Assembly: GCA_035549555.1 (NCBI GenBank)
Contig: DASZQR010000010.1
Span: 186,001 to 250,000 of the forward strand
Length of the DNA: 64,000 bases
Direction: 5' to 3'
Source: Patescibacteria group bacterium
Lineage (GTDB): Bacteria; Patescibacteriota; Microgenomatia; UBA8517
In this document: piece after piece, positions 27,070 through 43,998 of the stretch
How positions within the stretch are numbered: position 1 is the first letter of the stretch
How the letters are laid out: each line of letters begins with the position of its first letter
The notes under the pieces: generated by a model
Told to the model about the DNA's origin: nothing
What the model saw: the letters and a program-made list of their open reading frames with translations, nothing else
The model's database searches: none
Translations under genes and position numbers: made by a program

Positions 27070-28926
27070 TCACTTTGCGGTTGCATGATATACTCCATCC
27101 CATTCGCTTGGGGGATTTGCAATCAATTCTTTAATTCGTTCTATATACATTAAAATTGGCCCGTCTTCTGAATATTTTTTAACCAAAACCTTAAATGCAG
27201 TCAACGCTTTTTTAAAGTCACCTTTTTCATAAATTTTTCTTGCTTCTTCAAATTCTTCTAAGAATATTTTCTCTTTTTCCTTTGGTTCTCCAAGTGCCCG
27301 TAGTTCGTAAATACTTACTCCTTTTGACTTTCCTTTTACTGCAACATCATCGAGTTTTCTTGCTACTACTCTTCCCTCAACTTTTTTGTAAGTATTCTCA
27401 CTAATACAAATTTTAGTTCCATAATATTTATTTATTCCTTCAAGTCTACTTCCTAAATTTACATTATCTCCCAAAAGCGAATAATCAAATCTTTGCTCGC
27501 TTCCCATATTCCCCACAACCATTTCTCCGGTATTGATTCCGACTCGAGCACTAAAATCAAAATTTTTCTTTATTTCTTCCTGCATTGCAAGTGCCGTAAC
27601 ACAGGCCAAATATGCATGGTCTTTCTCAATTTCTGGAGCTCCCCAAAACGCCATAATGGCATCCCCGATATATTTATCCAAGACTCCCCTGTTTTCAAAA
27701 ATCACATTTGTCATTTTGGTTAAATAGCTATTTAATAATTTTGCCAAATCAGTTGGCGTTAATTTTTCACTAATACTAGTAAATGAAGCAATATCAGAAA
27801 ATAAAACTGTAAGTTCCTTGCTTTCTCCTCCAAGTTTTATTTTATGTGGATTTTGAATAAGATGTTCCAAAACTGATTTTGATAAATAAAATCCAAAAGT
27901 TTGTTTAAGAAATTTTCGCTGACGGCTTTCTGTTAAATATTTATAAATCGTATCAGCAATACATGAAATAATTATTGCAAAAATTGGAAAAACAATATTA
28001 CGAATCGTCCCGTTATCAAAAGAAAATATTACATAAACTGCATATATTACTATCATTAAAATTCCTGATATAAAAACAACAACTGGAGATAAATTAATAA
28101 AAATAATTGATGCAACAAGGCAAATAATTAGTAATGTAAATAAAGTTATTAATTTTGATTCATTATTCTTAGCGCCATTTGTTAGAATTGTATTTATAAT
28201 ATTTGCCTGAATTTCGACCCCGTTCATAGCTGGAGATGTTGGGACAATTTGGTCGTCATGAAGATCAACTGCAGTAGAACCAATCAAAACTATCTTGTTG
28301 TTTAAGTTTTTATCGCTAATTTTTCCATCCAAAATATCATTAAAAGAATAAGTTGTGAAACTATTATTGTTTCCTATAAAATTAATATTTCCATTTTCAC
28401 TTTTACCTGAAATTTCTGTTGCAAAACTTTTTATCCCATCAATTTCGCTTTCTGGAATTTTTCTGACAACGCCGTCGGAGTCAGCAATTGTATTTGCATA
28501 GCCTGTCGCACTTACATTTTTTAATTCATTGATTGGAGATAAAATATTGACGCCGTTTGTTTCGCTTGATAAAACAATTTTTGTATTACTGTAATTTTTC
28601 AAAGCAGTTGCAAAATCGCCATCAGATTTTGGGTTTGAAGTTTCTGAAAAAGTTATGTCAATTCCAATTACTTGAGGTTTTACTGCGTCTTTATTTAATT
28701 TATTAAGTAAATTTGCATAAACGCTTCTGTCCCATGGAAATCTCCCAATTTGATTAATTGACGCATCATCAATTGCAACAATTACAATATTGTTTGGTGC
28801 AGATTTTTGTGTAAATAAAGTATCGCTTAATTTATTTTGCCAGGTACCAAAAAAACCAAAAACGAAAAGGAAAGATAATAAAATAAAAATAACTAAACCA
28901 ATTATTAATCCTCTAAAATTTTTCAT
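27070..28926 (-). CDS. CHASE2-domain adenylate/guanylate cyclase
   Basis: Membrane class III nucleotide cyclase of 618 residues. Order: N-terminal anchor (about 7-27); extracytoplasmic CHASE2 sensor (about 30-255, with IVIVAIDDASINQIGRFPWDR and VIGIDITFSE); three membrane helices (about 260-340); cyclase domain (about 370-550) with metal-binding Asp in LFSDIASFTSISE and KYIGDAIMAFWG and the segment LLGDNVNLGSRLE; then a helical C-terminal tail that may be a TPR-like repeat. It makes cAMP or cGMP in response to an external signal. It lies 3 bp downstream of a FecR-like gene, a frequent partner. TGATAAAAT ends 5 bases before the ATG. Confidence 0.93.
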   Translation of the reverse strand: MKNFRGLIIGLVIFILLSFLFVFGFFGTWQNKLSDTLFTQKSAPNNIVIVAIDDASINQIGRFPWDRSVYANLLNKLNKDAVKPQVIGIDITFSETSNPKSDGDFATALKNYSNTKIVLSSETNGVNILSPINELKNVSATGYANTIADSDGVVRKIPESEIDGIKSFATEISGKSENGNINFIGNNNSFTTYSFNDILDGKISDKNLNNKIVLIGSTAVDLHDDQIVPTSPAMNGVEIQANIINTILTNGAKNNESKLITLFTLLIICLVASIIFINLSPVVVFISGILMIVIYAVYVIFSFDNGTIRNIVFPIFAIIISCIADTIYKYLTESRQRKFLKQTFGFYLSKSVLEHLIQNPHKIKLGGESKELTVLFSDIASFTSISEKLTPTDLAKLLNSYLTKMTNVIFENRGVLDKYIGDAIMAFWGAPEIEKDHAYLACVTALAMQEEIKKNFDFSARVGINTGEMVVGNMGSEQRFDYSLLGDNVNLGSRLEGINKYYGTKICISENTYKKVEGRVVARKLDDVAVKGKSKGVSIYELRALGEPKEKEKIFLEEFEEARKIYEKGDFKKALTAFKVLVKKYSEDGPILMYIERIKELIANPPSEWDGVYHATAK

Positions 28927-32170: not shown

Positions 32171-32476
32171 CTATTTATTCCAGAGTTTCATCAATATGGC
32201 ACACGGAGCGATAAGTTCTGGGTTTACTAGCTTGTAATAAGAATTTTTTCCTTCCTTCCTGACGTTTACTATTCTCAAATGTCTTAAGATAGAAAGATGT
32301 TGAGAAGTATTTGCTTTTCGTATACCAATTATTTCAGAAAGCTGATCAACGCTAGCTTCGGTGTTTTTTATAATATTTAAAATTTCAAGTCTTTTGGGGT
32401 TCGCCATTAATTTATAAATTTCCGAGTTCCTTTCGTAGACATATTTCGGAAAAGGAGATTTTAGTTTATTTGCCAT
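32171..32476 (-). CDS. ArsR-family winged-helix transcriptional regulator
   Basis: 101 residues from ATG 32476; a longer frame runs back into the truncated tRNA copy and is rejected. The winged helix is evident: MANPKRLEILNIIKNTEASVDQLSEIIGIRKANTSQHLSILRHLRIVNVRKEGKNSYYKL. No metal-binding CxC motif is seen in the recognition region; a single Cys near the C-terminus. It lies just outside the integrative element, next to its distal att site, so insertion may have replaced its original promoter. Confidence 0.88.
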   Translation of the reverse strand: MANKLKSPFPKYVYERNSEIYKLMANPKRLEILNIIKNTEASVDQLSEIIGIRKANTSQHLSILRHLRIVNVRKEGKNSYYKLVNPELIAPCAILMKLWNK

Positions 32477-32489
32477 TTTAAAGCTATTT

Positions 32490-32539
32490 GTGGGCGATGA
32501 GGGGCTCGAACCCCCGACCTCTTTCACGTCAAGAAAGCG
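32490..32539 (-). repeat. Distal attachment site (3' fragment of tRNA-Val)
   Basis: 50 bp identical to bases 39675-39724: anticodon stem, T arm and acceptor 3' strand of tRNA-Val(GAC). Sequence diverges immediately at both ends. This is the expected att repeat left when an element integrates into the 3' part of a tRNA gene. Confidence 0.9.
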
Positions 32540-32655: not shown

Positions 32656-33573
32656 ATGTCTACAGAACATTTTGCAACTGTCCAAAGCTCACTTGAAAAA
32701 TATGCAAGTTCAATTGATCTTGAAATTACTGAAAAAAATAAAATACCGTTTACTGGCGGTGAAATTATCTATGCTAGAACACAATCTGGTATGGATGTTG
32801 TAATTAAAAAGACTGCACGTAAGAATCAAGCTGAACATGAGTGGAGAGGTTTAAATACGGCACATTCTACAGGTATTGCAACACCTTCACCTATTGCACT
32901 TGTTAATTACAATCAAGATCATCTAGCACTGGTATCAACACGTATTCATGGAAAAAGTTTGTATTTTAATCCAAATCCAGGGATTAAGGATAAATTAGGC
33001 AATCAAATCAGAATAATGCATAATACAGCGCAGGTTACTGGTGATAGTTGGAAAGCAACAGGTAGAAATTCATTTGCTTACTATGATAAATATATTTTTA
33101 ATTGGTCACGAGTTGGTCTTGAAGAAATTAATATTGACAGTAAATCTTATGCACTAATTAAAAGCTTTAGAGATTTAATGGAGCAGTTTTGCAACGAAAC
33201 ACAGCCAACTTTTAACCACAATGATTTACATGATGGCCAGGTTATTGTTACCGAGGAAAATATTCCAGTATTAATAGATTTTGGAGAGTGGACAGAGGAA
33301 ACATGGTTAAATGATATTGGATACTATTTATTTCACCAGATTCGAACTGATAGACCAAAAGATGACTTTTCAACTTTCTTAAACGGGTACCTCTCAGGAG
33401 AAAGATTATCTGAATCTGAAAGGTCGAACCTCGCCTTCTATTTGCTTTTCATATCTTCAAGAGCTTTAACTTATTTTTACAGGAACAGTAGTCCTTATTT
33501 ATCAACAGCAAAGGAGACACACGGCAAAGTTTTAAAATATGTTGATAATGAAGAAGTTTGGAAAAATTATTGA
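32656..33573 (+). CDS. Aminoglycoside-phosphotransferase-family kinase (APH/choline kinase fold)
   Basis: 305-residue protein kinase-like enzyme. The N-lobe has VVIKKTARKNQAEHEW (Lys and Glu of the beta3-alphaC pair). The catalytic loop is FNHNDLHDGQVIV near residues 186-198, with Asp190 as base and Gln in place of the usual Asn. The metal motif is LIDFGEW, where DFG is kept. APH-fold kinases phosphorylate small molecules, sugars or peptides; within a RiPP island it could modify the product, confer self-immunity or be unrelated. It is convergent with the cluster, overlapping the phosphatase gene by 7 bp. Confidence 0.8.
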   Translation: MSTEHFATVQSSLEKYASSIDLEITEKNKIPFTGGEIIYARTQSGMDVVIKKTARKNQAEHEWRGLNTAHSTGIATPSPIALVNYNQDHLALVSTRIHGKSLYFNPNPGIKDKLGNQIRIMHNTAQVTGDSWKATGRNSFAYYDKYIFNWSRVGLEEINIDSKSYALIKSFRDLMEQFCNETQPTFNHNDLHDGQVIVTEENIPVLIDFGEWTEETWLNDIGYYLFHQIRTDRPKDDFSTFLNGYLSGERLSESERSNLAFYLLFISSRALTYFYRNSSPYLSTAKETHGKVLKYVDNEEVWKNY

Positions 33574-34220
33574 CGGTTATTTATTCTTATGTCTTTAAAG
33601 TGCGAATAATTATTGATGTAATTAATTTTCCACATTTGGAACTGACTACTATGGATTAATAACGACAAACCAGTATTGTCTATGGTTAATGTGTTAATGC
33701 TCCTAGCCATTTGTGTGTCAGAATAATCCTTACCTAACAAAATTCTACTGATTAAACATCTAATAAATAAATCATGCGAAACAATTGCTACTCTTTTACC
33801 TTGGAAGTTTTTCGTTAAAAATGAGGTTAATTCCATAGTGCGATTTATAACCTCACGTACAGATTCTTCCTTATCTTCAAATTTCCAATCAAGATTATTG
33901 AAATTATGGCGAGATTCTTCAATATATTTTTTTGATATATTACTTTCTCTTTGTGCTCCATACATTTCATCTAACTGCTGTCTTTCACAAATATAATCTA
34001 AGATGCTAGTTTCTACTCCGATTTTTTTGGAAATAATATCTGCTGTTTGAGTAGATCTTTCTAAATCACTAGAGAATATTTGATCTATCTTGAATGACTT
34101 AAGCTGATTAGCCAAAGCTCCTGCCTGTTGTTCACCTAATTTACTTAACTTTGAATTTGGAGCTTGCCAACGATCCTTTACACCGTCAGCTTCTGCATGT
34201 CTAACAAGAAATAAAAACAT
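33567..34220 (-). CDS. Histidine phosphatase-family protein
   Basis: 217 residues with the phosphohistidine motif LVRHAEAD at residues 5-12, SSDLERSTQTADII (second Arg, about 55-68), the acidic loop near 85-95 and the second catalytic His in VAIVSHDLFIRC. This branch includes phosphoglycerate mutase-like and sugar-phosphate or nucleotide phosphatases. It is the last gene of the cluster; it starts 14 bp after the SagB-like gene, with a TATAAT box 7 bases before its ATG. Paired with a kinase on the opposite strand, it may act on a phosphorylated intermediate; that is speculation. Confidence 0.85.
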   Translation of the reverse strand: MFLFLVRHAEADGVKDRWQAPNSKLSKLGEQQAGALANQLKSFKIDQIFSSDLERSTQTADIISKKIGVETSILDYICERQQLDEMYGAQRESNISKKYIEESRHNFNNLDWKFEDKEESVREVINRTMELTSFLTKNFQGKRVAIVSHDLFIRCLISRILLGKDYSDTQMARSINTLTIDNTGLSLLIHSSQFQMWKINYINNYSHFKDIRINNRQ

Positions 34221-34233
34221 CTAAAGAATTATA

Positions 34234-35004
34234 CTATAAAGTTCCTATTGCAATAACACCAATTACACTTTCATCTATTGGGTCAAAATCCAATAATTTG
34301 TTCAATCCATCGTCAATAAATCCGCCTATAGAACATGAACCAAGGCCTAGCTCTTGTGAAATCAGGTAAATATTTTGAGCATAATGACCATATTCGGTAA
34401 ATATATGTCTTAGCCCCCTATCTCCGTATTTGTTATCAGTCCTTTCAAAAACAGCTGAAACAACAATTAACATTGAAGACTTACGTATCCATGGTTGATT
34501 AAACTGCTTAATTATTTGCGCTACAAAACTATTGCTATATATTTCTTCTAAAGAATGACTTTTAACATGATAATGATAAATTGCAGGTTTAATGCTTTCC
34601 GCATTAAAAATGACTGGATAAATTTCTAAAGGATACCTAGCTCCTGCAGAAGGATAAAACCTTCTTTCTCCAGATCCTTTAAACAAAAGTTCTTTTAAAC
34701 CGCTTGAAAAATACAGCAAAGTAGAGAGATCTTGGATTTTTATATCTTTTTTTGTAAATTCTCTTTGAGATTTTCGTTTAATCAATGCATCATCTAAGCT
34801 CCAGCGTGCTCTTGCTGGATCAGGTAACAAAACTTGAGGAAATTTAGGATATGCTTTGTAATAAACCTTCTTCCACTGCTCAGGCCAAGCACTATATGAA
34901 GTTTTTGTTTTACTAAAATTCTTTATCTTAATACTATTATTAAATTTTATTGAAGATGAAAGCTCTAGCTTTTTAAGTATGTTTATTGTTTTATCGTTTT
35001 TCAT
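34234..35004 (-). CDS. SagB-type FMN-dependent dehydrogenase of a RiPP (azole) pathway
   Basis: 256-residue nitroreductase-fold protein of the SagB/ThcOx family, which oxidises thiazolines/oxazolines to thiazoles/oxazoles. FMN-binding RKSQREF is at residues 77-83; the family signature RFYPSAGARYPLEIYPV is at 115-131; GLGSCSIGGFIDD near residue 225 also fits. It overlaps the YcaO gene by 4 bases (ATGA), so the two enzymes are translationally coupled, as in streptolysin S-type clusters. The N-terminal 50 residues contain a Trp/Lys-rich segment (AWPEQWKKVYYKAYPKFPQ) typical of SagB proteins. Confidence 0.9.
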   Translation of the reverse strand: MKNDKTINILKKLELSSSIKFNNSIKIKNFSKTKTSYSAWPEQWKKVYYKAYPKFPQVLLPDPARARWSLDDALIKRKSQREFTKKDIKIQDLSTLLYFSSGLKELLFKGSGERRFYPSAGARYPLEIYPVIFNAESIKPAIYHYHVKSHSLEEIYSNSFVAQIIKQFNQPWIRKSSMLIVVSAVFERTDNKYGDRGLRHIFTEYGHYAQNIYLISQELGLGSCSIGGFIDDGLNKLLDFDPIDESVIGVIAIGTL

Positions 35005-36308
35005 AAAAACGGATGTGGGTAGGTGTTTAATCTAATATTTTTATACCCCAACTTAACGGGAACAGCGTGCAATCTATTACCTCCACGAAGTGCGAATTTT
35101 TCTTCTAAGTATAATGGTTGCATGCCAGGTATTATTACTTTTACTGCTTTGAAATGGATATTTTTGAAATATTCAGGAGTAATATCTTTATAATAAATTT
35201 TATAACCAGCTTTATTTAAACTGTCATTTAAATATCTGATTTGTTCCTTTACAGATAAATTATTATTTTTTAAGGTAATAACTTCAGATCTCAACGCTTT
35301 AATTAAAAAGTTAATATGAGAAATTGATTCAGGTTTATACCAAAGCAATCCTCTATTTTTCATACTAGAACTTTCAAGCAACTCTTTTTCTGTAATATTT
35401 GTTGGATTTTGAATATATGCTTCTCTTATCCAACTTCTTGTATGGTAGGCCTCGTTAATTGAACCAATGATAGCTTTTTCAACATTTAAATTTGATTTTA
35501 ACCCTACAGAAACTGCCTTACTTAATCCCGATCGATCGATTAAAATGGAAGCCACAGTCGGTATTCCTAAATCTGTAGTTATATCAAGACAATATAATTC
35601 CATATGATATCTTTCGGTAATTTCCGCCAGAGAGCGAATTTTTTTGTTCTTAGAAGATTTTAAATTGTATTTTTTTGGTTTTAATTTATTTAAATAATAA
35701 ATCATAAAAGAATCTCTCTCTATTACCTCATAAATACCTCCTAAAATTGCAGAGTCCAAATCAGAATGAGCAGCTACGCCTGTACTAATCGAAGGATAAA
35801 ATGTAGGCTCTCCCTTAATTAATTTGTAGGAAAGATATATTGTCTGGCAGGGTACAAGATATTCCTTACCGTCGGTTAATAATTTAACCTTTGTCCAATC
35901 AAATCTAGATTTATCGTTTATTTTAAATTTTTTATATTCTGGATTATTTAATTGTTTTTCCGAAAAATACGAGAAGGATTCGGGATTAATTGCATTAGTT
36001 TTGATATCAACAAATCTTCCAACGAAATCTATATCTTTTTTAAAGAAAGCAAAGTTGCTATATCTTTCCAACGCTTCAAATAGTGATTTAAGTACGGCTT
36101 TATTTTGAGAAAAAAAAGATACTCCAGAAGAATTAGAACTAAAATGCTGCCCTTGGTGCTTTAAATATTTATCGTTTATGATTGTAGAATAAAACCAAAA
36201 CTTAGGCTCGTCATAATGCAAACGAGTTCTTTGAAAAGATTCAACTAATTTAATATCCTGTAAAGCAGATGCTATTTCTTTGATGGTATTGACGGTATTA
36301 TTTTTCAT
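35001..36308 (-). CDS. YcaO-domain cyclodehydratase
   Basis: 435-residue YcaO protein. These enzymes use ATP to cyclise Cys/Ser/Thr onto the preceding carbonyl, giving azolines. ATP/Mg motifs are visible: EALERYSNF (78-86), STGVAAHSDLDSAILGG (175-191), EVIERDSF (194-201) and INEAYHTRSW. The C-terminus is NTYPHPFL, a near match to the PxPxP tail of azoline-forming YcaOs with the last Pro changed to Leu. No E1-like or RRE (precursor-binding) domain is fused to it. It lies 48 bp after the Cys-rich precursor gene and is coupled to the SagB-like gene. Confidence 0.93.
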   Translation of the reverse strand: MKNNTVNTIKEIASALQDIKLVESFQRTRLHYDEPKFWFYSTIINDKYLKHQGQHFSSNSSGVSFFSQNKAVLKSLFEALERYSNFAFFKKDIDFVGRFVDIKTNAINPESFSYFSEKQLNNPEYKKFKINDKSRFDWTKVKLLTDGKEYLVPCQTIYLSYKLIKGEPTFYPSISTGVAAHSDLDSAILGGIYEVIERDSFMIYYLNKLKPKKYNLKSSKNKKIRSLAEITERYHMELYCLDITTDLGIPTVASILIDRSGLSKAVSVGLKSNLNVEKAIIGSINEAYHTRSWIREAYIQNPTNITEKELLESSSMKNRGLLWYKPESISHINFLIKALRSEVITLKNNNLSVKEQIRYLNDSLNKAGYKIYYKDITPEYFKNIHFKAVKVIIPGMQPLYLEEKFALRGGNRLHAVPVKLGYKNIRLNTYPHPFL

Positions 36309-36356
36309 TTACACGCTTAAAAACCACCAAAGTATAGCAAACTGCTTGAAAAATAA

Positions 36357-36554
36357 CTATTTAGTTATATTGCCTTCTCTATTTGAACAATTGCATCCAC
36401 AATCAGCACACGATGAACAACTTCCACAGCTATTGTCTCCACAGGCACAGCTATTACAACTTCCACAGCTTTGTTCACAATCCTGGCCTTTAATGGCAAC
36501 GCCAATATTTTGTTGTGGTAATGCATCTATTAGATTTCTTTCTTCTCTACTCAT
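36357..36554 (-). CDS. Cys/Ser/Gly-rich RiPP precursor peptide (candidate)
   Basis: 65 residues. The first 25 look like a leader: charged start MSREERNLIDALPQQ, then a hydrophobic NIGVAIKG. The core (26-65) has 11 Cys at positions 26, 30, 33, 36, 38, 43, 46, 49, 52, 54 and 56, with six Ser-Cys pairs and Gly/Ala/Asn spacers, ending CSNREGNITK. This resembles the cores of streptolysin S and other azole peptides. It is the first gene of an operon with YcaO and SagB homologues, has an AAGGTGA ribosome site 5 bases before ATG and a consensus promoter. A small metal-binding protein is the alternative, but the context favours a modified peptide. Confidence 0.8.
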   Translation of the reverse strand: MSREERNLIDALPQQNIGVAIKGQDCEQSCGSCNSCACGDNSCGSCSSCADCGCNCSNREGNITK

Positions 36555-36585: not shown

Positions 36586-36618
36586 AAAGAATATATTCTT
36601 TACTACAGGCTTTGTCAA
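36586..36618 (-). promoter_or_regulatory. Consensus promoter of the RiPP operon with a 16-bp operator-like palindrome
   Basis: Minus strand: TTGACA (36613-36618), a 17-bp spacer and TATATT (36590-36595). The perfect palindrome AAAGAATATATTCTTT (36586-36601) covers the -10 box and is well placed for a repressor. A 5' untranslated region of about 28 nt carries a Shine-Dalgarno, unlike most genes in this window. Confidence 0.75.
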
Positions 36619-36630
36619 ACAACAATTTTA

Positions 36631-36858
36631 ATGAACAATCCAATTGATCCAGAAGCAGTATTGAATCTTTTTGCTAAGAACGTGGACGTAGGTGGCTTTG
36701 CAGGTCCTATTCCTAATTCTTTATTGGCACGTCAAGACTTGGAAGCTGAGATCGTCAAGTTGACAGATCGTAAGACTCCTCTTCGTGACATCATGCCTAG
36801 AGTAAAAGGTGAAGGTCGTGCTCATTTGTGGAAACAGTCAGGGGATTATTCATCCTAA
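36631..36858 (+). CDS. Short protein resembling the N-terminus of a phage capsid protein
   Basis: 75 residues: DPEAVLNLFAKNVDVGG, then ARQDLEAEIVKLTDRKTPLRDIMPRVKGEGRAHLWKQ. The TPL-R-x-x-PR-x-KG-x-x-x-x-W pattern resembles the N-terminal region of SU10/HK97-type major capsid proteins, which normally continue for 250 or more residues. The frame ends after Trp-Lys-Gln-Ser and no continuation is found. It is divergent from the precursor gene and could be a phage remnant or a small protein in its own right. The assignment is weak. Confidence 0.4.
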   Translation: MNNPIDPEAVLNLFAKNVDVGGFAGPIPNSLLARQDLEAEIVKLTDRKTPLRDIMPRVKGEGRAHLWKQSGDYSS

Positions 36859-36893
36859 GAGATGTCTTTTTTAAAATATCTTTACACAACGAA

Positions 36894-36899
36894 TATAAT
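36894..36899 (+). promoter_or_regulatory. -10 box of the HEPN-like gene, leaderless type
   Basis: TATAAT ends 6 bases before ATG 36906. It fixes the likely start and excludes the longer in-frame extension that begins inside the preceding 75-codon gene. Confidence 0.55.
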
Positions 36900-36905
36900 C
36901 ATGTT

Positions 36906-38573
36906 ATGAAGTCGGAAACTAGAGTTAGGGAACTAGACCAGTTGGATATTCGCTATCTGGAAGGTGTTTATAAGAGTTTGCCATATGCTGGTAGTTTCTG
37001 GTTGAGCGTAGAGAAAGCTCTTAGTGATGATTCTTCGAGTATACAACTGCACAGGTGTACGTGTGGTGCGCTTGTGATGTTAACTAGACAGTATGTGAAG
37101 AGATCAAAACTTTTGCATCTAAAAAGACCTCTTGCTGAATGCTGGCATAAAGAAGGTTTTGTAAACTCAATATCTTCGATTAATTCTCAAATTAGAAATA
37201 GAACCAACATGATTAGTAAGTTGTTAATTGAAAATCCAGCTCAGGCTTATAAGTTAGGTGCTGGATTATTGCCTACAGATAGTTTTTATAGTTTTGACTA
37301 CGGACTGTGGCGACTGCAATATATGCTATTTCTTAATGAGTATCGTTCATCTACTTCTGTAAATAAAAGAAAGAAATATAAAGTACCTTATGTAAGTGCA
37401 TTTAACAATTTATTTGAGCGGGCTGAGAAAGTTAATCCTTCTGAATACAAGAAAGCACTCAAAATGTTTTTCGAAGATAAAACTTACACTACTTTATTCG
37501 AATCGGTAGAAATAGGACTAAATAAAATACAAGAATCAGATAATTTACGATCAGAGGAGGCTTATAGGCGAATTACCGGTGGTTTCGTACCTGTGGAAAG
37601 GTTGAGGATGAATGATGTTAAGGAAGTTGAAAAGAGAAGTTACCAAATAGCCTTAGATGCTTACCAAGCTTATTTTGAGATTAGCGAGGTTCTTAATATA
37701 ATTTACAACATTATAAATATTTGTAACGGTGGATCTTTTATGTTAAATCCTTTTGCTGGCAAAAAATACAATGGTTTAAAAATTGGAAACAAGAAAGGTT
37801 TAATGATCAAAAAGATAATTGATGATTGCCCTGATCTTATTCTTAAGCGAAAAATAAGAATGGCTTATGATGCAGGGTTGAGAAATAGTACTTCTGGCCA
37901 TAATGATTATTTGATTGACATGAAAAGGGAAGTAATCAAAATAAAATCTTCAGGGAAAATTTATAAAGTGGACTACTTAATTGATAAGATTGATAGAATA
38001 AAGGCAGTCGTTGATTCGATTTATATTTTAATCAACCTTGAAAATTATGCAGATAAGAAAGTAGCTCTCGGTTTAACAGGAATACATAGCATTGTTATAA
38101 ATTTTGAGAAAGGAAGTGGCAAACCTCTTCCAGCACTTACTATTTTTCAGTTTTGGACTAACGCTGAAAACGATTCCAAAGGAAAAAGATTCAAGATGTT
38201 ACATTTTCGTATATCTAAAGATCGTAAGGCTGTACTTTTTTCTCCTTCGAACGTCATGATTGTTCCAGGTGCTGCTGCATTGCCAGTGCATCAACACTTA
38301 TTAGATTGGTTAGAAAATGCATATAAATCTGATAAGGTGTTTATGGAAAGAATAGTTATTGTTCCGAGAATTGAACTTTTTTTAAAACTAGCTAGAAAGG
38401 AAGTGACATTAGATAGTCATGATTTTTTTGCAATTTCTAAAACCAATCATGAATTAATTGTTGAGAAGAAATATCTAAAACATGCCCTTAAATTGCTTAG
38501 GAAGAAGAAGTTACCTGTCGGCCCAGATTTAGATAACGATCCGATGAGAGACTTACAAAAATACTATTCCTAA
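36906..38573 (+). CDS. Large protein with a HEPN-like RNxxxxxH motif (possible ribonuclease/defence protein)
   Basis: 555 residues. The N-terminal third has HRCTCGALVMLTRQ and a later Cys-Trp-His, possibly metal-linked, but no known fold that I recognise. Between residues 310 and 400, ILKRKIRMAYDAGLRNSTSGHNDY (Arg326, His332) and then YKVDYLIDKIDRIKAVVDSIY resemble the conserved part of HEPN ribonucleases, where an RNxxxxxH motif sits in a helix followed by a polar beta-hairpin. HEPN proteins are common abortive-infection effectors and toxins. It is transcribed from its own leaderless promoter next to the integrase. Function is inferred from one motif and its context. Confidence 0.5.
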   Translation: MKSETRVRELDQLDIRYLEGVYKSLPYAGSFWLSVEKALSDDSSSIQLHRCTCGALVMLTRQYVKRSKLLHLKRPLAECWHKEGFVNSISSINSQIRNRTNMISKLLIENPAQAYKLGAGLLPTDSFYSFDYGLWRLQYMLFLNEYRSSTSVNKRKKYKVPYVSAFNNLFERAEKVNPSEYKKALKMFFEDKTYTTLFESVEIGLNKIQESDNLRSEEAYRRITGGFVPVERLRMNDVKEVEKRSYQIALDAYQAYFEISEVLNIIYNIINICNGGSFMLNPFAGKKYNGLKIGNKKGLMIKKIIDDCPDLILKRKIRMAYDAGLRNSTSGHNDYLIDMKREVIKIKSSGKIYKVDYLIDKIDRIKAVVDSIYILINLENYADKKVALGLTGIHSIVINFEKGSGKPLPALTIFQFWTNAENDSKGKRFKMLHFRISKDRKAVLFSPSNVMIVPGAAALPVHQHLLDWLENAYKSDKVFMERIVIVPRIELFLKLARKEVTLDSHDFFAISKTNHELIVEKKYLKHALKLLRKKKLPVGPDLDNDPMRDLQKYYS

Positions 38574-39569
38574 TTATATTTTGATATTAATTGTTAGTTT
38601 TTCACCTTTTCTTGTGTATTTGATAATACCAAAGTCTTTTTGTAGTTTTTCTATAACTATTTTTGCCCTTTCCTCTGTGGATAGAGACTTTCTTACTGTA
38701 GGAATTGAATTAATAACCCTGGCTTTGTCTTGCACGGAATAATGGCTATAAATGTCTGCGGTGATGCCAATACTGCTATGACCCAGGATTTTGCTTACCA
38801 TACTAATATCTGTCCCGTTATTTAATAAACTTGTGGCAAAACTGTGCCGCATGGTATGGAAATGGAAATCATTTGATATTCCCAACTTCTCGCAACCTCT
38901 TCTTATATAGTGATTAAGACTGCCGCCATAAACATTGAAAACTTTTCCAGGGCCAACACATCTTCTTTTCATCATTTCAATTAAGTCGGGAGGAACTATG
39001 CCAGTATGAAATTTACCTTTACTGTAAACATTAAAAGTTGCTGGGATAGAGTTGAGATTGACATCTTCTTTCTTGAGTCCAATAATTGCCCCGATTCTTA
39101 AACCTGTTCTGGCTTCGAAGAGTAAGGCTTCCCTGTTTTCCAGCCTTCGTTCTTTAGCAAGCTTACAGTCCTTTTCTGTGAATGAGGTTCCAGCGAAGAT
39201 GGTTTTATCTAGCTCTTCGAAACTTACTACTGGATATTGTTTTGGTTGTGCTTTGGGAACCTTAATCTTTTTGGACCAATCAATCTTTATATATTTTGTT
39301 TCAAAAAGCCAATGAATAAATGGTTTAACTTTTGAATTAAAGTCACTTCTGATTCCATTTGCCGACCAACCCAAATCGGAACTTAAATGATACATATAAT
39401 CTTTGGAAGTCTTCAACGTCAATTTTTCGCCGTCAAGATATTTCAAAAAATGGCCAAGAGTCTGTTTTTTCCCAGCAACTGTTTGCTTTGCAAGACCACG
39501 TTCAATTTTGCACCATTGAAGATACTTAGTTAATATGATTTCTAAATGTTTACCTTGTAAGTTAGCCAT
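38574..39569 (-). CDS. Tyrosine recombinase (integrase) of the tRNA-Val element
   Basis: 331 residues from ATG 39569; the frame extends to a GTG at 39650 but the extra 27 residues are unlike integrase N-termini. A SAM-like core-binding domain is followed by the catalytic domain with RTGLRIGAIIGL (Arg I), HTMRHSFAT (HxxR), LGHSSIGITADIYSHY (His and nucleophile Tyr). The gene points away from the intact tRNA and lies about 105 bp from the att repeat, the usual place for an integrase of a tRNA-targeting element. Confidence 0.93.
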   Translation of the reverse strand: MANLQGKHLEIILTKYLQWCKIERGLAKQTVAGKKQTLGHFLKYLDGEKLTLKTSKDYMYHLSSDLGWSANGIRSDFNSKVKPFIHWLFETKYIKIDWSKKIKVPKAQPKQYPVVSFEELDKTIFAGTSFTEKDCKLAKERRLENREALLFEARTGLRIGAIIGLKKEDVNLNSIPATFNVYSKGKFHTGIVPPDLIEMMKRRCVGPGKVFNVYGGSLNHYIRRGCEKLGISNDFHFHTMRHSFATSLLNNGTDISMVSKILGHSSIGITADIYSHYSVQDKARVINSIPTVRKSLSTEERAKIVIEKLQKDFGIIKYTRKGEKLTINIKI

Positions 39570-39674
39570 AGCAACCCAAGGGATTGCTTCTAACTTCCCG
39601 AGAGTTACCACCTGAGCGTTATGCCGTCTGTAGCGGACTGCCGTTGTCACAGCAACGACTTTTCATAAATACAA

Positions 39675-39724
39675 GTGGGCGATGAGGGGCTCGAACCCCC
39701 GACCTCTTTCACGTCAAGAAAGCG
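39675..39724 (-). repeat. Proximal attachment site within tRNA-Val
   Basis: 50 bp identical to 32490-32539, spanning the anticodon stem to the 3' end of the tRNA plus one flanking base. Integration here keeps the tRNA intact. Confidence 0.9.
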
Positions 39725-39749
39725 CTCTAGCCAACTGAGCTAACCGCCC
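39676..39749 (-). tRNA. tRNA-Val(GAC), attachment site of the integrative element
   Basis: 74 nt on the minus strand. Acceptor GGGCGGT pairs with ATCGCCC (one G-U); discriminator A. Anticodon stem CTTTC/GAAAG with loop TTGACGT gives anticodon GAC. T arm GGGGG-TTCGAGC-CCCT-type. CCA is not encoded. The 3' 49 nt plus one flanking base form the att repeat also found at 32490-32539. Confidence 0.95.
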
Positions 39750-42712: not shown

Positions 42713-42973
42713 ATGTCAACAAAATTATTTATTGGAAATTTGGATTACACAGTAACAAGTGATGATTTAAAATCAGCTTTTGCAGCTTACGGAAACGTTA
42801 CAGATGCAGTTGTTATCACAGATCGTGAAACAAGAAGAAGCAGAGGTTTTGGATTTGTTGAGTTTGCGACTGCTGAAGAAGCTCAAAAAGCTATGGAGGC
42901 TATGAATCAACAGCCATTAAAAGGCCGCAATATCAACGTTAACGAAGCCAAACCACAAGAAAACAGAAATTAA
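42713..42973 (+). CDS. RNA recognition motif (RRM) protein
   Basis: 86 residues forming one RRM: RNP2 LFIGNL at 5-10 and RNP1 RGFGFVEF at 44-51, with a short Gln/Asn tail. Bacterial single-RRM proteins of this type (Rbp-like) bind RNA and are often cold- or stress-related. An AAAGGAG Shine-Dalgarno precedes the ATG, so this gene has a conventional leader, unlike most neighbours. Confidence 0.93.
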   Translation: MSTKLFIGNLDYTVTSDDLKSAFAAYGNVTDAVVITDRETRRSRGFGFVEFATAEEAQKAMEAMNQQPLKGRNINVNEAKPQENRN

Positions 42974-43998
42974 TTTTTCAAATTTTTTGTGAAGTACTCA
43001 AGGTCTTTCTGTATAACGGTATTCCAAAGCGGAGTCATCATATGATCAGCACCAGGATATTTGTTATAAACAACAGGAAGACCTTGTTTTTTGAGATTAT
43101 CAGCTAGATTATCGCTCCAATCTACTGGTACGCTATCATCAGCTGTTCCTTGGTCAAGTTGTATTGGAGCTTTTATTTTGTCTAAATAATTATTTAAAGA
43201 ATATAAATCAGTATTATATACATCTTCAAAAGTGGAAAGCTCCTTCCTTAAAGATTTTCCCTGATCATCAGCTTCGTCGCTATAATAAAGAATATCAAAA
43301 GGAAAACTGGAAGAAACAGGAGCCCACAAAACAGTTGGATAATTTACTCCTGTGATTTCAAGAGTAGTTAGAGCAATCTGACCGCCATTGCTATGTGCCC
43401 AAATGAAAATATTTTTCCCATCCCAGTTTGGAATTTGACCAACTGATTTTAGAACTGCCATAACAGTTGTATAAGTTTGAAATCGCGATTCAAAGACATT
43501 GCTTGATTCTTTATCAGAATCTCCATATCCTAAAAAGTCTGGTGCGACAGTTATAAATCCGTTCTTGGCAAAAAAATATGATCCGTTTATTGTCCCGTTG
43601 CCTGTAAAATATTGTTCTGTAGGAACATATCCTCGAATCATAATTACAAGCGGATATTTTCCCTCACCTTTTGGAATATTAATAAGCCCTGAAGTTTTTT
43701 TCGTTTGCACTACAGTCCCGAGCGAAGTCGAGGGGTTAAAGTTCATAATAAATTCACTGGAAGTAAATTCTGGAAAATCTTTAAGTTGACTTGTCACCCT
43801 GAGCGTAGTCGAAGGATCTGTTTTTGTATTCCAATAATTACTTAAATTATCTATCGTATATTTATCAAGCGATCTATCTACAACCTGGCTGACAATTTGT
43901 GTTGGTTTTTGGGTTTTGATAAGAATTAGTTGACCAACCATAAATCCAATTCCAAAACTAAGTAAAAACCCGGAAATAATTAAAAGTTTAACTTTCAT
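42970..43998 (-). CDS. Exported alpha/beta hydrolase (prolyl-oligopeptidase-like) with repeat-encoded peptides
   Basis: 342 residues: N-terminal signal anchor (about 3-25), then an alpha/beta hydrolase. The nucleophile elbow is WAHSNGGQIAL, the acid is probably in GTADDSVPVD and the His in YPGADHMM. Upstream of the fold two inserted segments, TDPSTTLRVTSQ and FNPSTSLGTVVQ, come from palindromic repeats in the DNA. They fall in the linker before the catalytic domain (GLINIPKGEGKYPLVIMIRG), where they are probably tolerated. TGCTAAAAT ends 6 bases before the ATG. Confidence 0.85.
   Translation of the reverse strand: MKVKLLIISGFLLSFGIGFMVGQLILIKTQKPTQIVSQVVDRSLDKYTIDNLSNYWNTKTDPSTTLRVTSQLKDFPEFTSSEFIMNFNPSTSLGTVVQTKKTSGLINIPKGEGKYPLVIMIRGYVPTEQYFTGNGTINGSYFFAKNGFITVAPDFLGYGDSDKESSNVFESRFQTYTTVMAVLKSVGQIPNWDGKNIFIWAHSNGGQIALTTLEITGVNYPTVLWAPVSSSFPFDILYYSDEADDQGKSLRKELSTFEDVYNTDLYSLNNYLDKIKAPIQLDQGTADDSVPVDWSDNLADNLKKQGLPVVYNKYPGADHMMTPLWNTVIQKDLEYFTKNLKN
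43713..43737 (-). repeat. Palindromic coding repeat in the hydrolase gene, divergent copy
   Basis: Plus strand CAGTCCCGAGCGAAGTCGAG followed by GGG: a shorter variant of the CCCTGAGCG-AG-CGAAGGG element, translated as NPSTSLGTV. Confidence 0.55.
43794..43818 (-). repeat. Palindromic coding repeat in the hydrolase gene
   Basis: Plus strand TCACCCTGAGCGTAGTCGAA followed by GGATC; differs from the pheT copy at a few positions and encodes DPSTTLRVTS in frame. Confidence 0.7.

Follow-up and report, generated by a model that had tools for sequence, protein, structure and literature searches.

What is a five-gene cluster for a predicted thiazole peptide, two of whose genes encode a kinase-like protein and a phosphatase, doing between two copies of a tRNA end in the small genome of a candidate phyla radiation (CPR) bacterium? 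The locus lies in a window of 64,000 nucleotides (positions 186,001 to 250,000 of contig DASZQR010000010.1, assembly GCA_035549555.1, Patescibacteria group bacterium), to whose numbering the coordinates below refer. The genome amounts to 1.01 Mb over 16 contigs and has a single YcaO match, and it is placed within the CPR, in the same family as a Woesebacteria relative, here G040, whose YcaO is identical at 446 of 447 positions to that of a Candidatus Woesebacteria record. A first-pass annotation had described four co-directional, tightly packed genes at 33567-36554 as an azole-type cluster of a ribosomally synthesized and post-translationally modified peptide (RiPP). All four frames are found there on the minus strand, and there is good support for assigning them to a linear azol(in)e-containing peptide (LAP) cluster of a CPR bacterium, but the extent was drawn too small, as a kinase gene was missed and the cluster appears to be the cargo of an integrative element. 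The explanation proposed here, tentatively and at somewhat less than an even chance, is that of a mobile element at tRNA-Val carrying a five-gene thiazole-peptide cluster, in which Ser phosphorylation governed by the kinase and the phosphatase keeps the peptide harmless in its maker. The predicted genes, the repeats, the intact tRNA gene and the recurrence of the five genes in one relative are all read from the sequence itself.

The precursor peptide (36357-36554, minus strand) has 65 residues and 11 Cys, as the first-pass annotation had it, and consists of a leader with an ERxLxDALPQQN-like motif and the core CEQSCGSCNSCACGDNSCGSCSSCADCGCNCS, which is acidic and Cys-rich and holds neither Lys nor Arg. 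The window has 96 frames of 40-120 codons that start with ATG, and this one is the richest of them in Cys, followed by a frame with 7 Cys in 78, so that it is hardly a chance frame. A database search yields four other proteins with the same frame and a near-invariant core at 58-66% identity, and the alignment of these five window-type precursors contains 27 invariant positions, 22 of them within the core, including four Ser that each directly precede a Cys. Two of the four relatives are on contigs sized like those of YcaO hits (7188 and 4410 bases), one of which has a kinase hit too, and the other two are on contigs of 574 and 1714 bases. More widely, 13 of 28 loci, the window's among them, have a small frame with at least 4 Cys immediately 5' of YcaO. 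A Cys/Ser/Thr-rich core beside YcaO is what is expected of LAPs, or thiazole/oxazole-modified microcins (TOMMs). The two doubts that the first-pass annotation attached to its own reading, that the precursor frame might be absent from all related clusters and that YcaO and SagB might group with families acting on non-peptide substrates, do not hold, for the frame recurs and both enzymes belong to peptide-acting families. A promoter-like TTGACA-17-TATATT (11/12) lies 5' of the precursor (36590-36618, minus strand); it is a consensus match only, one of 25 such sites where 23.9 are expected by chance.

Downstream of the precursor, at 48 nt, follows a stand-alone YcaO cyclodehydratase, or D protein, of 435 residues (35001-36308, minus strand). 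It scores 259.5 bits against the TIGR03604 SagD cut-off of 219.25, and its ExxER (78-82), ExxERD (194-199) and C-terminal PHPFL, which bear out the ATP motifs and near-PxPxP tail reported at first pass, are invariant in an alignment of 32 sequences that includes the window's own. Its structural model (predicted local distance difference test, pLDDT, 93.1) has LynD, MusD, MJ1094 and TruD as its best PDB matches. As the family profile aligns to LynD from residue 350 only, the window's YcaO lacks the C domain, and as the MusD entry is titled for peptidase activity, the fold would also suit another reaction. The YcaO gene overlaps by 4 nt that of a SagB-type FMN-dependent dehydrogenase of 256 residues (34234-35004, minus strand), the B protein of LAP and TOMM clusters, with 141.7 bits against the TIGR03605 cut-off of 78.4. 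Its KYGDRG at residue 192 contains the KY motif expected of such dehydrogenases, which is matched in 16 of 18 relatives compared, the search pattern having missed the other two. After a further 13 nt comes a histidine phosphatase of branch 1 (33567-34220, minus strand; 217 residues, RHAE at residue 7, SHD at 148), which matches PF00300 with 106.2 bits against a cut-off of 21.7 (2.3e-30).

The fifth gene runs tail-to-tail with that of the phosphatase, with a 7-nt overlap, and encodes a kinase of the aminoglycoside phosphotransferase (APH) family, PF01636 (32656-33573, plus strand; 305 residues from the ATG at 32656, with a TTG frame from 32629; match 6.9e-11). As it lies on the other strand, it would form its own transcription unit. 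Residues K50, E61, H187-N188-D189 and D207-F208, numbered as in the alignment, are invariant in 22 aligned sequences, own included. The model (pLDDT 93.5) is closest in fold to ytaA, the amicoumacin kinase AmiN and a spectinomycin kinase, with template modelling (TM) scores of 0.51-0.63 over the 50 matches listed, homoserine, choline and ethanolamine kinases among them. Relatives of this kinase are found in 3 of 142 genomes (the window's own, G040 and G087), always beside YcaO: G040 has the whole cluster in the same order, kinase included, and G087 an interrupted YcaO and a phosphatase beside the kinase, with no SagB seen. Wider searches with the 22-sequence alignment at E 1e-10, in two overlapping sets, recover two genomes out of 373 and two out of 379; it is one and the same pair in both sets, and both belong to the three already known. 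By indirect evidence the association extends to database proteins, where 17 of 38 kinases (own included) are on contigs equal in size to that of one of 120 listed YcaOs. It follows YcaO identity: equal-sized contigs occur for 15 of 25 YcaOs with at least 59% identity (own among them), for 2 of 31 in the range of 44-58% and for none of the 64 with less, and 0 or 1 remain when the sizes are shifted. In the YcaO tree all 18 kinase-labelled rows fall in one 64-row clade with an SH-aLRT (Shimodaira-Hasegawa-like approximate likelihood ratio test) support of 100, and none among the other 75 rows. Within the clade they do not form one unbroken group (13 changes), a pattern that may come in part from short contigs unable to carry the label, and most other YcaO loci have no kinase. 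Membership of the phosphatase rests on its position, adjacent in both the window and G040, because its family is common.

The cluster lies within what looks like a tRNA-targeted element, with an integrase beside the tRNA gene and a 3'-end repeat at the far end. An intact tRNA-Val(GAC) is predicted by ARAGORN at 39675-39749 (minus strand), and the 50 bp of its 3' end (39675-39724) recur as an exact direct copy at 32490-32539; no other exact direct repeat in the window is as long, the second longest measuring 23 bp. The frame of a tyrosine integrase (38574-39650, minus strand; PF00589 5.9e-21, phrog_1 integrase 3.9e-36) begins 24 nt from the tRNA 3' end and contains the R, HxxR, H and Y motifs of such enzymes. 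The 7.2 kb between the repeats hold the five cluster genes, the integrase and a 581-residue frame of uncertain start and unassigned function (36828-38573, plus strand), which has no match in Pfam, NCBIfam, PHROG or PADLOC and no relative in phages or viral contigs. No anti-phage defence was recognised by PADLOC among six proteins, and relatives of YcaO, the kinase and the 581-residue protein could be confirmed in none of the viral contigs. An ArsR regulator (32171-32527) was considered as a cluster member and rejected, because its place is outside the repeat and the surroundings of the G040 kinase showed nothing related to it. Elsewhere in the window, at 27070-28926, a protein combining CHASE2 with an adenylate/guanylate cyclase domain (PF05226, PF00211) is encoded, in a CPR genome of about 1 Mb.

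Similar brackets are found around other CPR clusters. In G040 a 91-bp direct repeat (86 identical) has these five genes and no others between its copies, with 3941 of 4054 nt coding, and one of the copies is situated where a resident frame has its 3' end. Some of the clusters that include an M16 peptidase are likewise bracketed, by repeats of 71/74 (G113), 45/47 nested in 51/56 (G092), 26/26 with a third copy (G303) and 22/22 (G315), and in the first three, not in G315, one copy ends a resident frame, which for the inner G092 pair is a 74-codon frame. When exact pairs of at least 18 bp, 2.5-10 kb apart, were collected over 19 loci, 11 of 11 bracketed the cluster, spread over 8 loci; uniform placement would give this with a probability of 1e-12, a figure to be read with the fact that pairs within one locus are not independent. 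In 24 control regions totalling 400 kb, 20 from genomes with YcaO loci and 4 from the window's contig, 10 pairs occurred in 5 regions and 3 of the 10 bracketed a mock block (Fisher p = 0.001 against 11/11). With a limit of 1.1 kb for tight bracketing, 5 of the 19 loci qualify and none of the 24 controls (p = 0.012); with 1.0 kb, 4 of the loci do and again no control (p = 0.03). The element in the window falls short of this on the side of the integrase. Repeats as such are therefore not special to the clusters, but their placement is. In the same-genus genomes G113 and G248 the cluster shares 80% DNA identity, and no blastn similarity is detected in the stretches of flank compared, beyond the cluster and its methyltransferase gene. 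Near CPR YcaO loci, repeats also flank a PIN gene (L033, 8476-9368) and an AbiEii gene (L031, 8716-10000), and a direct-repeat pair flanks further frames at 4056-5050 of L034; small modules may insert in the same way as RiPP operons.

According to the proposed model, the element would have come to tRNA-Val through its integrase. With ATP, YcaO would cyclise core Cys, and perhaps also the Ser of the Ser-Cys pairs, to azolines, which SagB would oxidise to azoles, and a protease encoded elsewhere than in the cluster would remove the leader. Phosphorylation of core Ser by the kinase would serve immunity, and the phosphatase would take the phosphate off again, freeing the serines. There are precedents for both halves of this switch. 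The APH-like kinase CaoK phosphorylates Ser/Thr of a RiPP precursor, that of a class V lanthipeptide (PMC9486802), and TsaC has been proposed to phosphorylate the precursor of a thioamitide (PMC8153245); both work with a HopA1 protein, and a phosphotransferase is encoded beside 96% of HopA1 proteins (PMC8153245). AmiN and AmiO are a kinase/phosphatase pair that inactivates and reactivates amicoumacin, as a form of self-resistance (PMC7235827, PMC8835302). As for YcaO clusters, the dehydrazole report mentions one with a Ser/Thr-kinase homologue (PMC10676384), and none with such a kinase or phosphatase is described in the titles and abstract openings listed by searches of the open-licence literature. 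The composition of the cores points in the same direction, with Ser making up 19-25% of six kinase-type cores and 0-19% of nine others. An apparent difference in basic residues that set cores of the kinase type apart from the rest was dropped, as it fails for three further candidates. On the strength of the CaoK/TsaC and AmiN/AmiO precedents, the kinase fold and the Ser-rich cores, reversible phosphorylation as immunity is favoured, at modest odds.

A number of observations weigh against this model. The fold match says little about the substrate of the kinase, because the PDB is rich in antibiotic kinases, and the protein has Gln at the place where APH kinases usually have a metal-binding Asn. 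Of the three further candidates without a kinase, one has a core with 17% Ser, one a core of only four residues with 25% and one a core with 0%, and like the kinase type they hold no Lys or Arg; the Ser trend is a lead and not a test, because the six kinase-type cores form one clade. Histidine phosphatases are present in 91 of 142 genomes, and kinase and phosphatase would share the cytoplasm, since the catalytic RHAE at residue 7 leaves no room for a signal peptide. At the threshold used, 11 of the 19 cluster loci have no repeat pair, and a tblastn search with the window's integrase, the one recombinase used as query, found no relative in the other loci. Neither a C/E1 or F partner nor an exporter or dedicated leader peptidase was recognised among the 19 cluster and neighbouring proteins scanned, and PqqD has no match across the genome. 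The genome's only ThiF match is on contig C3, whose composition is foreign. This ThiF was rejected as the missing E1 partner, because composition and genes of C3 (CsrA, PilB-type, oligopeptidase A-like, ThiF) point to another organism: its tetranucleotide correlation is 0.78 with the mean of seven 20-kb main-contig pieces, which themselves reach 0.90-0.97, having built that mean. In pairwise comparison two far main-contig pieces correlate at 0.84, C3 with those two at 0.70 and 0.67, and C3 with C4, C7 and C14 at 0.88-0.90. These four contigs all differ in tetranucleotides from the 810-kb contig, despite a listed contamination of 0.13%.

The cluster thus has the D protein, the B protein and the precursor by which LAP clusters are recognised, and has no recognisable leader-binding partner. 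Canonical clusters pair C and D proteins, and in those of bottromycin and trifolitoxin a D protein is believed to act alone (PMC4603692), so that the absent partner excludes the canonical LAP form and not the LAP kind. As for leader removal, an S9-like hydrolase is encoded outside the element (42970-43998). The genome's one M16 peptidase match (C10:48555) is 27-33% identical to eight M16s of other YcaO loci and is not clearly of the cluster type, although it may process the leader.

Other explanations share the same genes and differ mainly in what the kinase does. It is rather unlikely, though the least so among them, that the azole peptide is made as proposed while kinase and phosphatase act on a cofactor, a nucleotide or a host metabolite and serve the element. 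APH-fold kinases take many small substrates, with homoserine, choline and ethanolamine kinases among the fold matches, and histidine phosphatases are common in these genomes; what this leaves unexplained is that the kinase is found only beside YcaO, in one YcaO clade as judged from equal-sized contigs, and within the five-gene G040 element. It is likewise unlikely that the kinase is biosynthetic, its phosphate on core Ser belonging to the final structure, as a phosphopeptide or as a prelude to dehydroalanine, with the phosphatase clearing surplus and no immunity involved. CaoK does just this and TsaC is proposed to (PMC9486802, PMC8153245), and both the four invariant Ser before Cys in the five window-type precursors and the Ser-rich cores that accompany the kinase in the compared rows (six against nine) would suit such a role. 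Yet no HopA1 protein, and so no pair of the class V lanthipeptide or thioamitide kind, is seen among the 19 proteins scanned, the G040 element has no room for one, and the kinase lies outside the operon.

That the locus is an ordinary LAP operon whose position on the chromosome is conserved, with kinase and tRNA repeat incidental, is improbable. LAP clusters are reported to be widespread in CPR (PMC7298704), and a kinase is absent from most other loci just as bracketing repeats are from 11 of 19; this explanation is confronted with a 50-bp exact repeat at the tRNA with an integrase adjoining, with repeat pairs of which 11 out of 11 enclose the cluster when only 3 out of 10 enclose a mock block, and with two genomes, G113 and G248, that have the cluster in common and not, by blastn, the flanks compared. 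Most improbable is that the product is no weapon but an acidic, Cys-rich peptide that binds metal or signals and is tuned by phosphorylation. The absence of Lys and Arg from the core and of a recognised exporter nearby would be in keeping with it, but YcaO and SagB would turn thiols into azoles, which a metal-thiolate peptide would not need. The switch-bearing mobile element stays the preferred, if tentative, reading. Its generalisation is doubtful: RiPP operons would be exchanged among CPR bacteria as minimal integrative cassettes, 3.6-7.2 kb in size, that go into resident genes at their 3' ends, and one lineage of them would be a self-contained weapon-and-immunity unit whose azole peptide is made without a leader-binding partner, silenced by a dedicated kinase and released by a dedicated phosphatase.

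CPR cells have small genomes and are predicted symbionts (PMC7298704), and their means of attack or signalling are for this reason an open question. That a peptide pathway would be unexpected in so reduced a cell, as was first supposed, is less the case since a 2020 report of LAP clusters in one soil genome and of 110 in 93 further CPR genomes, with a nitroreductase gene adjoining YcaO in 89 of the 110 (PMC7298704). Elsewhere, five CPR YcaOs have been interpreted as thioamidation proteins (PMC12153355), and one study reports no biosynthetic cluster in its Patescibacteria (PMC11613949). YcaO relatives of the window are found in 14 of 142 genomes, own included, and in 26 of 373 genomes of the class by an alignment of 32 from the 120 listed proteins. 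A second kind of CPR YcaO/SagB locus, with KKKYxxP-like peptides, is seen in L033, L034, L081, L083, L086 and L089, several of which have an NTP_transf_5 (PF14907) protein (by Pfam in L033, by BLAST likeness in L083 and L089), and in L084 (5995-9842) a CPR YcaO/SagB pair is directly followed by an IucA/IucC-FhuF siderophore-synthetase-like gene. Related YcaO/SagB pairs occur in L018 (Aenigmatarchaeota; DPANN) and on the haloarchaeal plasmids NZ_CP054586 and NZ_CP098516, with YcaO identities of 37%, 30.8% and 28.0%, which suggests exchange between domains.

A LAP cluster in CPR is thus not new in kind. What goes beyond the published clusters is the fifth gene, the absence of a recognisable leader-binding partner and the cluster as cargo of an element, and the noteworthy part is the five-gene and probably mobile form with its candidate phosphate switch. 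If the model holds, a mobile five-gene unit with candidate immunity could explain the spread of such peptides among CPR, and it is of a size that can be rebuilt and tested in the laboratory. Kinase/phosphatase self-resistance would then gain a RiPP example, and the YcaO/SagB systems one for which no leader-binding partner is known.

Compared with known systems, the locus resembles the CPR LAP clusters of PMC7298704 in its YcaO, neighbouring nitroreductase-type dehydrogenase and small precursor, and differs from those described there in that its further genes encode a histidine phosphatase and an APH kinase and no peptidase; the main text of that paper contains none of the words kinase, phosphatase, mobile and integrase. 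The repeated Cys, Ser and Gly of the core recall heterocycloanthracin (TIGR03601; PMC4603692). The window's precursor does not match TIGR03601, its relative P0122 reaches 22.6 bits, under the cut-off of 35, and the fused C-D protein and the F protein of that group are not found here, so the cluster is not a member. With the known YcaO system that has no recognisable C protein it shares a YcaO without such a protein, but here a SagB dehydrogenase is present, the core has several Cys, there is a single YcaO where that system has two, and none of the five genes encodes a methyltransferase. As in the class V lanthipeptide and thioamitide systems of CaoK and TsaC, a PF01636 kinase is encoded in a RiPP cluster, here an azole cluster in which no HopA1 was found. 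The papers listed by a search on elements of this kind deal mostly with resistance elements, and none of the 12 listed is on CPR. The integrase by an intact tRNA gene whose 3' end is duplicated on the far side is that of genomic islands with a tyrosine integrase, in this case of only 7.2 kb, with a RiPP cargo and in CPR. Lastly, an APH-fold kinase and a phosphatase stand beside an antibiotic cluster in the AmiN/AmiO case too, although amicoumacin is non-ribosomal, unlike the peptide predicted here. In most Bacillus clusters for which this is reported, the two genes are on opposite strands with AmiO as the reversed one, whereas in the present element the kinase gene is the reversed one; by analogy in gene pairing and kinase fold, self-resistance of the AmiN/AmiO type is a candidate function for the pair in this element.

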